DNA of 64,000 nucleotides from Clostridia bacterium (lineage in GTDB: Bacteria > Bacillota > Peptococcia > DRI-13 > UBA5745): positions 62,001-126,000 of the forward strand of contig JAHDMJ010000007.1 in assembly GCA_018436095.1 (NCBI GenBank). Direction: 5' to 3'. Below, piece by piece: positions 19,494 to 61,855 of the stretch (the stretch's first letter is position 1; the number at the start of each line of letters is the position of its first letter). The notes under the pieces were generated by a model that did no database searches, had not been told where the DNA came from, and saw only the letters and a list, made by a program, of their open reading frames with translations. Position numbers and translations under genes: made by a program.

Positions 19494-19621
19494 AACCGCC
19501 TATCCGTAGATAAGGATCTGGCCGCCTAGCAAAAAGCAGCAGTTCCTATTTGTATTTATATCCTAACATAGCGGCGATACCAGTACCAAGCGCACCAAGC
19601 AAGCAATAGTTATGCCTGTAT

Positions 19622-20254
19622 ATCCTGAGTTCCCGCAAAATTACACCATAAAATCCTAGCCCCTTAATAAATAAGGATTAATCAGATCCTTATCCCAAAA
19701 GCTGTATAGTATTTAACTTTATTTCGAAAAAATCCGGACACTTTAAACTTGCAATTTTGGTTATTTCCGCCCCCCCTTTGCACACTGATCCGCCGGCGGG
19801 GCTAAGTGGGTTTTCAAACTATATTAGCCTATCCTAATGGAAAGAGATGGACACATCACCTCCTCACCGGTAGGGGGTGGATGACTTATTATAGGTCCCC
19901 CTCTGTGCAAAATTGCAAGTTTGTCTTCGTCTAGAGAGCCTAATCAGAGGAAATGTTAGAAAGCTTAAGCATTTTTTGCAGTTTAGTAGTGAATTTATTT
20001 CTGCCAGGGCACTAGATACAGCCAAGGTATAGGTTTCTACTTATTTTTTGAGCCGCCATAACTCTAAGGGGTGTCTACAAACTTGCATTTTTGCTCAACT
20101 GGCGCCCTTACTGGATACAAACCTGCATTTTTGCACAGAGAGGACAAAACCTGCAGAGAGGCCAAAAGCGAATTCTGAGTCAAGCTTGACAAGACAAATC
20201 TGGTCATTGGCGGTTTTTCTTGGTGTATGGTTTAATTTTGCGGGAACTCAGGAT
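19622..20254. repeat. 633-bp gene-free segment bounded by 29-bp inverted repeats
   Basis: The ends 19622-19650 and 20226-20254 are inverted copies matching at 28 of 29 bases (core CTGAGTTCCCGCAAAATT). Inside are several copies of the dispersed ~20-nt motif in both orientations and GC-rich blocks, but no credible gene. This resembles a MITE-like element or a large structured intergenic repeat. I see no clear target-site duplication next to the ends. Confidence 0.55.
19745..20156. repeat. Dispersed ~20-nt motif, cluster A
   Basis: Copies at 19745-19760 (minus), 19904-19925 (plus, preceded by a CCCCC tract), 20077-20097 and 20117-20137 (minus, starts 40 bp apart) and a partial at 20144-20156. 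The plus-sense form is close to TGCAAAATTGCAAGTTTGT. The spacer between the two 20.1-kb copies is unique. Confidence 0.65.
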
Positions 20255-20278
20255 TTATCATAGCCTGCACTAAACTGC

Positions 20279-24794: not shown

Positions 24795-24936
24795 CTAGTG
24801 AGCAGTGACTAGTGAGCAGTGGAGCACCGAGGCACTGACGGCACTGACGGCACTGACGGCACTGACGCCCCGCCTGTGCAAAAATTGCGGTTGTATTCAA
24901 TTGCCTAAGGTCAGGTGAGCAAAAATTGCGGTTGTA
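24795..24936. repeat. Composite repeat block, cluster B
   Basis: Three layers: a 14-bp unit CTAGTGAGCAGTGA twice (24795-24822), the 9-bp unit GGCACTGAC four times (24831-24866), a GCCCCGCC tract, then two plus-sense copies of the dispersed motif (24875-24895 and 24916-24936; GCAAAAATTGCGGTTGTA) starting 41 bp apart. A pair of AAAAATTGTACAG copies follows at 25045 and 25086. The 560-bp gap 24624-25183 has no credible gene. Confidence 0.7.
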
Positions 24937-25127
24937 TGTAAAATGCAAGGTCAAGATGGCTGCACAAACGGAAAAACCGCACCGCTTTAGCCTGAAATTT
25001 GCTAAAATTGACCTTTGCAGCGGCTGCAATTCCCGCAAAAACGAAAAAATTGTACAGGCAACGGCAAGAATCTGCCCACAACCGTAAAAATTGTACAGAG
25101 CCCCGTGCCGCCCCCGAAAATCTATAC

Positions 25128-32438: not shown

Positions 32439-33692
32439 GTGCTGCTGCTTTTCGTCCTGCTTGTCCTGGGCGCCTTCTTGCTGGAGCGAGCCTCCCTCAA
32501 GGATGAGCTGCCCTACATTTCTTATACCTGCCGGCCGGACCGCCGCCAAACGGAGCCGGGCCAGCCTTTTACTATCACCACAGCCCTCACCAACCGGCGG
32601 CGGCTGCCGGTTGCTTTTTTGCGCCTGGAAGAGCAGTTCCCTCCCTCCCTTGCCATCAAAGGCGAAGGTTTAGGCCTGCGGTCAAAGCCTGATTCTCTGC
32701 TGCTTTGCAGCACCGTATTTCTCATGCCCAGAGAAATACTCACCCGCAAAATAACTGTCAGTCTGCCGGAGCGGGGCCGTTATATTTTCCGGGGCGCTCT
32801 GATCTATGCCGGGGACTTCCTGGGCCTTCAGGAGAGAGGCCGCCAATTCCGGCAAACCGAGGAAATTGTGGTCTACCCTGCCGCTGCCAAGAATCAGGCT
32901 TTGCCTCAGGTGTTGGGCAGCTTTTTGGGGGATCAATCCGTCCGGCGTTTTATTTTGGAAGATCCCATTTTGACCCTGGGCTTTCGGGAATATACCGGCC
33001 ACGAGCCCCAGCGCAGTATTAGCTGGCCCCAGAGCCTGGCCAAAGGCAGGCTGATGGTAAAGCAGTACGATTACACCCAGGATCTGTCCGTCACCGTGTT
33101 GCTGAATACCGACTGCGGCATTAAAAACTACCGGGACCCTCAGCTAATCGAGGAAGCCTTTTCCTTAGCCCGCAGCGTCTGTGAAAACCTGGAGGCAAAA
33201 AAAATCCGCTACAGCTTTTTAACCAACGCCACAACCGCCGGTGCTATGGGTCAATGGAGCTTCCTGCCGGCAGGCTTAGGAGGCCAACACTTTTATACCA
33301 TTATGGAGGGCTTGGGCCGGGCTACTTACGATCACCGTGAGCCTTGCAGCAGTTTGCTCAAGCGGGCAGAAAAGCGGGGAGACCACGGCCAGGCCCATAT
33401 TCTCATTACCCCCCGTCAAAGTCCTCGGCTTTTGGCCATGGTCAAAAGGCTGGAAGTCTTGAGCGGCGGCAAAGTTTGTTTACTGAGCGCTGTGCCGGGT
33501 GCTGCATCGGGCACTGCTTCGGGTGCTGCATCAGGTGCTGCTTCGGGCGTTGCATCGGACACTGCTTCAGTCACTGCAGCGGGCGTTGCGCCGGACACTG
33601 CAGCGGACGCTGGTGGCCTTACCGATGCCGGTGATAATACCCCTACTGCTGCTTACGCTAATACCACCGCAAACCAGGAGGTGCCGGCATGA
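32439..33692 (+). CDS. DUF58 protein with repetitive C-terminus
   Basis: A 417-residue protein: a short N-terminal hydrophobic segment, then a beta-rich part and the DUF58 core (PVAFLRLEEQFPP; SLPERGRYIFRGALIYAGDF; GFREYTGHEPQRSISWPQSL; VKQYDYTQDLSVTVLLNT), related to von Willebrand A domains. It commonly works with MoxR. The last ~65 residues are Ala/Ser/Gly/Thr-rich low-complexity sequence from a 12-bp tandem repeat. The start is a GTG with AGGAGG 7 bp upstream. The end overlaps the next gene by 4 bp. Confidence 0.9.
   Translation: MLLLFVLLVLGAFLLERASLKDELPYISYTCRPDRRQTEPGQPFTITTALTNRRRLPVAFLRLEEQFPPSLAIKGEGLGLRSKPDSLLLCSTVFLMPREILTRKITVSLPERGRYIFRGALIYAGDFLGLQERGRQFRQTEEIVVYPAAAKNQALPQVLGSFLGDQSVRRFILEDPILTLGFREYTGHEPQRSISWPQSLAKGRLMVKQYDYTQDLSVTVLLNTDCGIKNYRDPQLIEEAFSLARSVCENLEAKKIRYSFLTNATTAGAMGQWSFLPAGLGGQHFYTIMEGLGRATYDHREPCSSLLKRAEKRGDHGQAHILITPRQSPRLLAMVKRLEVLSGGKVCLLSAVPGAASGTASGAASGAASGVASDTASVTAAGVAPDTAADAGGLTDAGDNTPTAAYANTTANQEVPA
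33497..33616 (+). repeat. 12-bp tandem repeat inside the DUF58 gene
   Basis: About ten units of a 12-bp motif near GGGTGCTGCATC / GGGCACTGCTTC encode (G/D)-(A/T/V)-A-(S/A) tetrapeptides. Units have diverged but the frame is kept, so the tail probably is translated as a flexible linker. Confidence 0.85.
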
Positions 33693-59125: not shown

Positions 59126-59986
59126 ATGGCCGAAAAAGAAATTCGCATCGTCACGGACAGCACTGCCGACCTGCCTCCGGAATTCATTAAAGAAAACCGA
59201 ATCACGGTGGTGCCTTTACATATCACCTTTCCCAAAGGAGGCGCCTATCGGGATGGGCTTGATCTGACGGCAAAGGATTTTTATCCCTTGCTTTTAGCTG
59301 CCGGCGATGCTATTCCCAAAACCTCTACCCCCACAAAAGATGAATTTGCCCGGACCTATCAGGAGCTGATGGCCGAAAACCCCGATTGCCAGATCATCTC
59401 TATTCACTTGTCGGGAGGTCTCAGCAGCACCATAAGCGTGGCCCAGACCGCCGCCCGGGAAGTCAGTCCGGATATTTTCCCCTTTGACAGCCGCAATATC
59501 AGCTTCGGCATGGGCCTGCAGGTTCTGGAAGCTATTCGCCTGATCAAAGAGGGCGCCGCCGTCAAAAAAATCCTGGATCATCTAAGCCTGGTAGCCGCCC
59601 ATACGGAGACCATGTTTTGTCTGGATACCTTGGAGTATCTTTACAAGGGCGGCCGCATCGGCAGAGTTACCGCTTTTTTCGGCTCCATTCTCAATGTGAA
59701 ACCCATTATCCATGTTAAAGACGGTGTCTACGAATCCTTTGACAAAGTCCGCAGCCAAAAACAAGCCATCCAAAAGATGGTGGACCGGGGACTTAGTGTT
59801 TTGGATGGCCGCAAGCCTTTGCGGATGGGCGTAATCCACGGGGCCTGCGAGTCCATGGCCGACCTGCTGAAAGAAAAAGTCGAGACGGCTTACGGCAAGG
59901 CTGTGGACTGCTTCTCCGAGACGGGAGCCGTTATCGGCACTCATACCGGGCCCGGTACCTTGGGTATGACCGTTTGCCATTTATGA
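59126..59986 (+). CDS. DegV family fatty-acid-binding protein
   Basis: A 286-residue DegV protein. EIRIVTDSTADLPPEFIKEN, YRDGLDLTAKDFYPLL, PKTSTPTKDEFARTYQELM, IHLSGGLSSTISVAQTAA and a C-terminal IGTHTGPGTLGM are family features. DegV/FakB proteins carry a fatty acid for phosphorylation by FakA; many remain unassigned. It lies 137 bp after pyrD and may have its own promoter. Confidence 0.94.
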   Translation: MAEKEIRIVTDSTADLPPEFIKENRITVVPLHITFPKGGAYRDGLDLTAKDFYPLLLAAGDAIPKTSTPTKDEFARTYQELMAENPDCQIISIHLSGGLSSTISVAQTAAREVSPDIFPFDSRNISFGMGLQVLEAIRLIKEGAAVKKILDHLSLVAAHTETMFCLDTLEYLYKGGRIGRVTAFFGSILNVKPIIHVKDGVYESFDKVRSQKQAIQKMVDRGLSVLDGRKPLRMGVIHGACESMADLLKEKVETAYGKAVDCFSETGAVIGTHTGPGTLGMTVCHL

Positions 59987-60045
59987 TTTAAGACGGGATC
60001 ACTTTCTGCTGCAATATTTATAATATACGGTTTACACTTAATAGA

Positions 60046-60123
60046 AAAGACGCACGGTTCTGCCAATGGTATGCTGCATGAAAAGAGCAGCATACCATTT
60101 TACATAGCAACCGGTGCGTCTTT
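60046..60123. terminator. Large hairpin after degV
   Basis: An outer stem (AAAGACGCACGGTT with its near-perfect complement) encloses an inner perfect 12-bp stem ATGGTATGCTGC/GCAGCATACCAT. It starts 60 bp after the degV stop. A short T-run follows. Probably a terminator; its outer arm resembles the hairpin at 49055. Confidence 0.65.
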
Positions 60124-60209
60124 AAAACATCATTGTAAAAACAAACAGTTGCAAGGCAGGACCTGTGCAACTGTTTCGATCATATGCAGCTTCAAGAGGC
60201 AGCTTGCAC

Positions 60210-60344
60210 GGCACTGACGGCACTGACGGCACTGACCCCCTTGTGCAAAATTGCGGGTTTGTTACCCCGTTTGCTTGGAAAGGTGCAAAATTGCAGGTTT
60301 GTCGCCATTCGCACAGGCTAACTGTGCAAAATTGCAGCTTTGTC
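60210..60344 (+). repeat. Composite repeat block, cluster D plus-sense half
   Basis: Three units of GGCACTGAC (60210-60236), a CCCC tract, then three plus-sense copies of the dispersed motif at 60242-60262, 60282-60303 and 60323-60344, starts 40-41 bp apart. Copies read GCAAAATTGC(G/A)G(G/C)TTTGT. Spacers are unrelated to each other. Confidence 0.75.
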
Positions 60345-60420
60345 GGGTCAGATCACCGTCTTTTGGCCGTTTTTAGCATCAAAACAGGCTGAAAACCGGA
60401 TTTTTATAGCTGGAAGCCTT

Positions 60421-60524
60421 TACAAACTTGAAATTTTGCTCATTTGGCCGTTGTATACCATGACAAACTTGAAGTTTTGCTCAGTTAGCCCCAGGCAACA
60501 GAAACAAACCTGCAAAATTGAACA
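60421..60524 (-). repeat. Cluster D minus-sense half
   Basis: Three minus-sense copies at 60421-60442, 60462-60483 and 60504-60524, starts 41-42 bp apart, close to ACAAACTTGAAATTTTGCTC. They face the plus-sense half across a ~75-bp gap, so the whole block is a large inverted arrangement. The 660-bp gap 59987-60646 holds this block and the degV hairpin but no credible gene. Confidence 0.7.
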
Positions 60525-60646
60525 GCCAGCCACCGGCACTGCCATCTCAAACCGCCCGCTGCATCACTGCCCTACTGCTCCGCTACATCATTGCATCATT
60601 GCTCTATTTCCCCACTGCCTCATGGATGCTGTGGCACAAACGCCCA

Positions 60647-61855
60647 TCAATTTTGCCGGCACACCAGCATATCCGCCATCTCCCTTAAAAACCGGGTATC
60701 CCCCGGCAGCTTATCCAGGGCCTTTTTGGCCTCCGCATTTAACCTGTCTACCTCCTGTTGGGCCTTTGTCAAACCGTACAGCCTGACAAAGGTGGTTTTT
60801 CCATTAGCCTCATCGCTGCCGATGGGCTTGCCCAAAAGGGCGGCGTCGCCGGTGATATCCAAAATGTCGTCCTTAATCTGAAAGGCAAAGCCCAGATGAT
60901 CAGCATATTCTACGGCGGCCCGGCAAGCTTCCCGGTCAGCCCCTGCCAAAATACAGCCGATCTCGGCAGCTACGGCCAGAAGAGCCCCCGTCTTTAATTT
61001 GTACATGCGCTCCAACAGCTCTGCCGGCGTACTTTTGCCCTCCTGGGCCAAATCAATAGCTTGTCCGCCGATCATGCCGCCAAGGCCGGTGGCCCGGGCC
61101 AGACAATGGATCACCTGCAAAACTCTGGCAGCCGGAAAGGGCCGGCTATAGCGGGGATCCGTCATCACCTCAAAGGCTAAGTCCAGCAAGGCGTCCCCCG
61201 CCAATAAAGCCTGGGCCTCCCCGAAAGCTTTGTGACAGGAAGGTTTGCCCCGCCGCAGATCATCATCATCCATACAAGGCAAATCATCATGAATCAAAGA
61301 AAAGGCATGGATCATCTCTAAAGCCCCGGCATAGGGCAAGGCCGCTGCAATATCTTCATGGTACAAATGGTAAAAAGCCAGGACCAGCGCACCTCTAATT
61401 CGTTTGCCGCCCCCCAGCAGGCTATAGCCCATAGCCTCCGCCACCTGGCTTTCCGGCAGGGGACATTGGGGTAAATAAGAGGCTAAGGCTGTCTCCAGGC
61501 TGTGGGCATACCGGGACAACTGCTGTTTTGCCGCTTCCCCGATAGTCTTGGTTTCTTCAGCGCCCTCGGCCTTCCCAGCGCTCTCGGCTTTCCCAGCGCC
61601 CTCGCCTATCTCAGCGCCCTCAGCCTTCCCAGCGCTCCCGGCTTTCCCAGCGCCCTCGCCTATCTCAGCGCCCTCAGCCTTCCCAGCGCTCCCGGCTATC
61701 TCAGGGCTCTCGGCCCTCCCAGCTAGCTCGGCTCCCTTGGTTCCTTTGACTTCCTTAGCCAGCCCGGCTCTCCCGGCTACCGCCGTCCTCTCAGCTTCCG
61801 CTTCTTTTTTATCTTTGTTATCAAGCACTGCCATATTCAATACTGCTGCTTCCAT
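60647..61855 (-). CDS. ispA: Polyprenyl diphosphate synthase (IspA-like) with repetitive N-terminal extension
   Basis: A 402-residue short-chain prenyl synthase. The core from about residue 105 has both Asp-rich motifs: SLIHDDLPCMDDDDLRRGKP (DDxxxxD) and AFQIKDDILDITGD, plus LGGGKRIRGALVLA and KTGALLAVAAE. The first ~100 residues are an Ala/Gly/Glu/Lys-rich extension with an 18-residue unit GSAGKAEGAEIGEGAGKA twice (about 55-90) and a third partial copy. Normal IspA is ~295 residues. An internal start beyond the repeats is possible, but the ATG at 61855 has GGGAG and sits 10 bp after pyrE. Confidence 0.9.
   Translation of the reverse strand: MEAAVLNMAVLDNKDKKEAEAERTAVAGRAGLAKEVKGTKGAELAGRAESPEIAGSAGKAEGAEIGEGAGKAGSAGKAEGAEIGEGAGKAESAGKAEGAEETKTIGEAAKQQLSRYAHSLETALASYLPQCPLPESQVAEAMGYSLLGGGKRIRGALVLAFYHLYHEDIAAALPYAGALEMIHAFSLIHDDLPCMDDDDLRRGKPSCHKAFGEAQALLAGDALLDLAFEVMTDPRYSRPFPAARVLQVIHCLARATGLGGMIGGQAIDLAQEGKSTPAELLERMYKLKTGALLAVAAEIGCILAGADREACRAAVEYADHLGFAFQIKDDILDITGDAALLGKPIGSDEANGKTTFVRLYGLTKAQQEVDRLNAEAKKALDKLPGDTRFLREMADMLVCRQN

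Follow-up and report, generated by a model that had tools for sequence, protein, structure and literature searches.

Cluster D in the degV–ispA intergenic region

Within the window, the whole 64,000-nucleotide stretch of DNA analysed here, two convergent genes, one for a DegV protein (PF02645) and one for an ispA-type polyprenyl synthetase (PF00348), flank a repeat array, cluster D. The array consists of six 22-bp units, three in plus orientation followed by three in minus orientation, and spans 283 bp (60242-60524). The plus arm comprises unit 1 (60242-60263, outermost), unit 2 (60282-60303, which carries the exact core TGCAAAATTGCAGGTTTGT) and unit 3 (60323-60344, innermost), and the minus arm comprises unit 4 (60421-60442, innermost), unit 5 (60462-60483, whose core has four mismatches) and unit 6 (60503-60524, outermost), with a 76-bp centre (60345-60420) separating both arms. 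Start-to-start distances are 40 and 41 bp in the plus arm, 41 and 41 bp in the minus arm, and 98 bp across the centre. An earlier note on this DNA had described three plus and three minus copies, a spacing of ~41 bp in each half, a gap of ~75 bp between the halves and a location between convergent degV and ispA, all of which are borne out by the mapped units and the flanking domains. Its start at 60210 is explained by three head-to-tail plus-strand copies of the 9-mer GGCACTGAC (60210-60236), which lie in the outer flank ahead of unit 1.

A search with the 19-mer core, allowing up to three mismatches, yielded eight matches in the window against 0.03 expected from shuffles, five of them in cluster D. 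With a position matrix and a minimum of 15 bits there were ten matches against 0.025 (40 shuffles), six of them in cluster D; the unit at 60462-60483 was detected only with the matrix or a looser scan. A chance origin of the cluster D units is excluded. The window also contains tandem repeats of 18/54 bp and 24 bp (61557-61723 and 33496-33584), unrelated to the arrays.

Facing arrays throughout the source genome

Searching the 3.7-Mb source genome with the same core and up to three mismatches gave 414 matches, compared with 0 for the reversed control. Arms built from 22-bp units, with a pitch of 40/41 bp, occur at about 90 genomic places, and most of them face across a centre. For analysis of the family, 93 stretches around unit matches were taken, giving the unit consensus TGWGCAAAAWTKCARGTTTGTA. 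The pitch within arms is 40 or 41 bp in 171 of 178 same-strand spacings under 120 bp. In 77 arrays a plus arm faces a minus arm once, with arms of one to four units; 22 of these fall in a gap class of 165-175 bp, and in the remaining 55 the arms are equal in 17 and unequal in 38, the difference being at most one unit in 53.

Most clusters are intergenic, 91 of 93 being without overlap to a predicted gene. Where both neighbouring genes were called, using simple codon-score predictions, their orientation was convergent in 25 cases, tandem in 38 and divergent in 8. The idea of a regulon, with units upstream of a common gene class, was rejected, since the neighbours of five clusters have nothing in common: the eight proteins beside these single-unit or one-armed clusters include metabolic enzymes, a GntR/aminotransferase fusion, a cell-wall hydrolase, a transport-binding protein and others. 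Assembly contigs often end in or beside arrays (e.g. C1, C5, C12, C13, C20, C21, C24), so that array counts may miss copies in assembly gaps.

Among 150 genomes, the source genome included, 10 had any unit match at up to two mismatches, and the nine others had one to three scattered matches each. A search of genome contigs also returned one exact unit match in a Ferruginibacter MAG. Viral contigs gave 0 exact matches for the two-unit pattern and for the unit, and the array gave no match among plasmids.

Helical phasing of the arm distance

The distances between facing arms cluster at 89, 98-100, 108-111, 118-121, 131, 137-139, 161-162, 170-173 and 181 bp, with single arrays at 65 and 127 bp. 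Without the 165-175 class, R is 0.79 near a period of 10.3 bp (55 arrays), and 0 of 5000 jittered sets were as high. The best period for all 77 arrays is 10.40 bp (bootstrap 10.35-10.45), with R only 0.38 at 11.0. The arrays share ancestry, so their 55 gaps cannot be treated as independent values, and phasing was therefore re-tested on nine centres that are non-redundant by shared 7-mers; in this weaker test R = 0.81, a value reached by 55 of 10000 jittered sets. Gaps of 65, 127 and 137-139 bp lie off the main phase. The arm distance is locked to the helical repeat of 10.4 bp.

The strongest sign of phasing comes from related centres, whose lengths hardly ever differ by intermediate amounts. 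Comparison of 600 pairs revealed net length differences of 0-2 bp in 435, 9-13 bp in 134, 21-23 bp in 15, 32-33 bp in three and 42 bp in one, with 3-8 bp in one, 14-20 bp in two and other values in nine. A single 21-bp indel separates the centre of array L044 from those of L109, L116 and L134, at 91-94% identity. Since the 40/41-bp pitch corresponds to 3.9 turns at 10.4 bp, the units of one arm come close to sharing a face of the DNA without being perfectly aligned on it. The regular pitch and the helix-phased arm distance fit the suggestion in the earlier note that the array would look symmetrical to a protein bound at each copy.

Phased A-tracts in the array centres

In the 55 centres, four-base A/T tracts recur in phase at 10.4 bp; their mean z over dinucleotide shuffles is 1.96, compared with 0.07 and 0.29 in control flanks. 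The peak for this full set lies at 10.0-10.4 bp, and no tested period outside 9.5-10.8 bp exceeds 0.73; in the nine non-redundant centres the peak is lower (1.47, at a period of 10.0). The phase of the tracts relative to the units is common to the arrays (resultant 0.84). The array centres are probably curved, as predicted from the phased A-tracts. The closest relative in view of the cluster D centre is that of array L129.

A second unit type and related elements

Units of a second type, like TGTACAAAAATTGCGGTTGT, number 41 in the source genome and 43 in the congener G004 (up to two mismatches), the search covering 46 genomes, four of them with a match. Their arms have a 41-bp pitch, and the gaps of 20 arrays in two species measure 120-121, 131, 141-142, 161-162 or 172 bp, with R = 0.96 (0/5000). 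Among eight aligned second-type copies in G004, one carries a 21-bp insertion in a centre that is otherwise similar. One second-type array lies in the window (24831-25098): four copies of GGCACTGAC are followed by units TGWGCAAAAATTGCGGTTGTAT at 24875 and 24916 on the plus strand, facing units at about 25037 and 25078 on the minus strand, with a 41-bp pitch in both arms. The 9-mer GGCACTGAC is common to the flanks of this array and of cluster D. At L150, sequence like CAATGTCATTTAGATAAG stands at both ends in inverted orientation.

The window further contains a MITE-like element (19619-20257) with one plus unit (19904-19925) and two minus units (20076-20097 and 20116-20137) within the 32-nt terminal inverted repeat TATATCCTGAGTTCCCGCAAAATTACACCATA (19619-19650 and 20226-20257, 94%). 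It belongs to the 165-175 gap class, and its interior has no ORF of at least 100 aa. Terminal inverted repeats are present in some copies of the 165-175 class and of the second type, and none beyond the facing units was found in cluster D or in most of the 55 arrays.

Two further arrangements were seen. A third unit type, TGCACAAAAATCGAAGTTGTGT, occurs in facing arrangement at L125 and L126. The source genome also has a family of inverted pairs, GAGGGCACTGAAAAAGTCG, with 66 ends (up to two mismatches); several of these pairs are spaced about 214-216 or 224-225 bp, values that on inspection again differ by about one helical turn.

Conservation, boundaries and orthologous loci

Divergence in 51 nearest pairs is 0.087 for units, 0.143 for centres and 0.22 for inner spacers; unit sequence is better conserved than the sequence between units. 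In nearest pairs with a centre identity of at least 0.9 the values are 0.049 for units and 0.052 for centres, a comparison that is biased because these pairs were selected by centre similarity.

Homology between arrays ends at their outermost units. Counting only alignments that came within 30 bp of both array ends, 2376 of 2978 ends lie within 12 bp of the outermost unit, and 372 extend more than 20 bp past the units. The motif GGCA[CG]TGA occurs at 3.5 per kb within 80 bp outside the 55 arrays, versus 0.14 per kb at 200-600 bp (~25-fold), and 23 of its 30 occurrences face the array. GGCASTG facing the array within 80 bp is present on both sides of three of the 55 arrays, on one side of 20 and on neither side of 32, with 11 of 203 in a displaced control. 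A search for target-site duplications at the outermost units of the 55 arrays revealed no offset or length that stands out.

In the congener G004, degV and ispA are still convergent and similarity to the source persists just downstream of degV, with no array in the gap; in G002 the degV–ispA gap is about 140 bp and also has no array. The absence of the array from the orthologous gap in both genomes indicates a lineage-specific gain or loss. A retention of copies with loss of orientation or spacing in related strains, the outcome that the earlier note had named as evidence against its reading, was not seen: orientation and spacing are kept genome-wide, and in the two congeners the array itself is absent. 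Because homology stops at the outermost units, and the arrays are intergenic and absent from the orthologous gap, they are regarded as a discrete dispersed element. The G004 gap (L167:715-1381) contains a pair encoding a nucleotidyltransferase (PF18765/PF01909) and a HepT-like protein (PF01934), the make-up of an MNT/HepT toxin-antitoxin system.

Comparison with known interspersed repeats

The arrays resemble REP, BIME and REPIN sequences, as described in the accessible part of PMC2817692, in having more than 100 copies of a short intergenic unit, with units oppositely oriented. In BIMEs, however, the orientation alternates, whereas the arrays place all plus units before all minus units, and no listed array group has a minus unit ahead of a plus unit. 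They also differ from REP/BIME/REPIN in their 41-bp pitch, in the helix-phased arm distance and in a genome without the Y1 (RAYT) transposase: a search for Y1_Tnp gave 0 matches in the source genome, one in G004 and matches in one of five genus genomes, with matches in 5 of 14 control genomes. The inter-REP DNA of BIME-1 binds IHF, according to the accessible part of PMC2817692, and IHF is described as a DNA bender in that of PMC10969869.

Like pneumococcal BOX, in the portion of PMC3049150 available, the arrays are interspersed and modular, differ in how many modules they contain (tandem boxB in BOX) and show a convergent excess; unlike BOX, in which the end modules boxA and boxC stand around tandem boxB, they have two facing arms of one unit. 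With prokaryotic MITEs they share a short, non-coding, dispersed and intergenic nature, and some arrays lie within terminal inverted repeats, which in MITEs measure about 4-30 bp. In size, too, cluster D (283 bp) agrees with the MITE description of under 500 bp, non-coding and intergenic, 91 of 93 clusters being intergenic. Unlike MITEs, most of the 55 arrays, cluster D among them, are without a terminal repeat beyond the units and without a target duplication; target duplications fade with age according to the accessible text of PMC10969869, a text in which phased internal site arrays are not mentioned for prokaryotic MITEs.

BIME/REP, BOX and MITEs are the nearest known kinds, and the arrays differ from all of them in having facing arms of the same unit at a helix-locked distance; they have some features of MITEs and lack the defining ones of BIMEs. 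The ends of Mu and Tn7 each carry several sites of about 22 bp, and in P1 parS the sites flank a bend and are bridged by a protein, with IHF. The arrays are similar to the former in the several ~22-bp sites per end and to the latter in the sites on either side of a probable bend, but no transposase or partition gene was seen beside them, their unit count is variable and the module occurs about 90 times. A literature search, for which most subscription papers were out of reach, found no description of such arrays.

Discussion

The geometry of the arrays is consistent with a protein-DNA assembly. Our preferred reading, to which we give somewhat better than even chances, is that cluster D represents one copy of a lineage-specific, non-coding and dispersed element resembling a MITE, in which a protein would bind both arms and hold them together over a bent centre, probably to achieve synapsis of the ends. 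In this pathway, a sequence-specific protein would sit on each unit, those within an arm occupying almost the same DNA face; the bent centre would fold the DNA back on itself and bring both arms next to each other, and the unit-bound proteins would bridge the arms, forming a protein-held hairpin of double-stranded DNA. This hairpin would serve end synapsis in a small mobile element of MITE-like character, the units would be sites for a transposase or an accessory protein, and the short element length would force the phasing. We infer the protein, the mobility and the function; they are a reading of the observed geometry, phasing, A-tract phase, relative conservation and dispersal. The missing target duplication and the missing transposase count against the mobile reading (a DDE transposase with rve and Mu-C domains lies between the ends of Mu/Tn7-type elements; a search of the source genome for the rve domain gave one match, with no units around it, and one for Mu-transpos_C gave none, control genomes also being without a match). 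The closest pairs, with a centre identity of at least 0.9 and units not less divergent than centres, also count against the preferred reading, as do the shared descent of the arrays, with weaker phasing and a lower A-tract peak in the nine non-redundant centres, the pitch that falls short of four whole turns and the gaps off the main phase.

The earlier note had proposed that a transcript through cluster D could pair copy with copy. Accordingly, read-through transcripts would pair forward and reverse copies into a long interrupted hairpin, an RNA ladder that terminates transcription or protects mRNA. Such pairing is physically possible: the plus strand of 60200-60535 folds into the ladder at -106.4 kcal/mol (z = -2.38, a value that none of 100 shuffles equalled), RNAalifold reports a double change in 4 of 23 pairs, and for the innermost pairs only 4 of 500 shuffles attain the observed value of one covariation measure, that of further pair types. 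Any inverted repeat folds, however; the minus strand gives z = -1.53, the folding is unremarkable overall, and the other four of the five innermost-pair measures stand out less or not at all. Agreement at six variable positions is 0.547 between facing partners versus 0.581 with units of other arrays, compared with 0.532 for opposite-arm non-partners and 0.639 for same-arm units (within-array permutation p = 0.06). The 19 aligned innermost pairs are 91.9% complementary versus 91.3% after partner shuffling (125 of 500); the covariation of copy with copy that a ladder would require was not found. In 38 of 55 arrays the arms differ in unit number, against ladder pairing, and the gap period is 10.4 bp, that of B-DNA, not 11. 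Of 4227 Rfam families, none scored above its gathering score anywhere in the window. On partner agreement, the pairing control, the unequal arms and the period, the RNA ladder is rejected and appears highly improbable; the evidence points to double-stranded DNA, which a protein would fold.

A less probable alternative, though one to be taken seriously, is that the arrays are host architectural elements, at which a nucleoid or chromosome-organising protein makes small loops at about 90 intergenic places for insulation or supercoil domains; the arrays would have spread once by mobility and now be kept for the host. The greater conservation of units than of inner spacers agrees with this, as do the persistence of arrays without a constant terminal repeat or target duplication and the keeping of one architecture by two unit types in two species. 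However, the array is not kept at the orthologous degV–ispA gap in G004 or G002, and in the closest pairs the units are no more constrained than the centres. Convergent places outnumber divergent ones 25 to 8, as a host role would have it, but tolerated insertions also yield a convergent excess, according to the part of PMC3049150 available. The same excess, together with the relatedness of the centres and the lack of target duplications, would fit neutral filler or a bidirectional terminator, that is, dead repeats tolerated downstream of genes with a regularity inherited from one master copy. We consider this unlikely. Dead copies would gain indels of any length, whereas the length differences among related centres are nearly all whole turns; out-of-phase lengths, which filler predicts among the youngest copies, are hardly seen; the units are less divergent than the spacers, and phase locking is seen again in the second unit type. 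A terminator scan of 59900-60700 gave one site against 1.2 expected.

The preferred reading of protein-bridged arms may extend beyond a single family. Tentatively, and with more doubt than for cluster D itself, the arrays could represent an undescribed class of interspersed element, in which facing site arrays and a curved centre make a protein-bridged hairpin of fixed geometry, site types diversifying while the geometry is kept. Perhaps parallel site types, each with a cognate protein, hold the geometry constant (about 41-bp pitch, phase-locked arms). As a module of this geometry is found in MITE-like elements whose terminal repeats are of at least two kinds, it would be a transferable architectural device rather than the transposase site of one family.

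To our knowledge, helix-phased facing sites are known mostly from a few well-studied loci. The arrays provide about 90 natural spacing experiments in one genome, together with a second site type in two species, in which the surviving lengths differ by whole turns. A protein-DNA assembly would thus be readable from sequence alone, giving a direct handle for fishing out the candidate protein. If end synapsis is true, the arrays suggest how very short mobile elements unite their ends.
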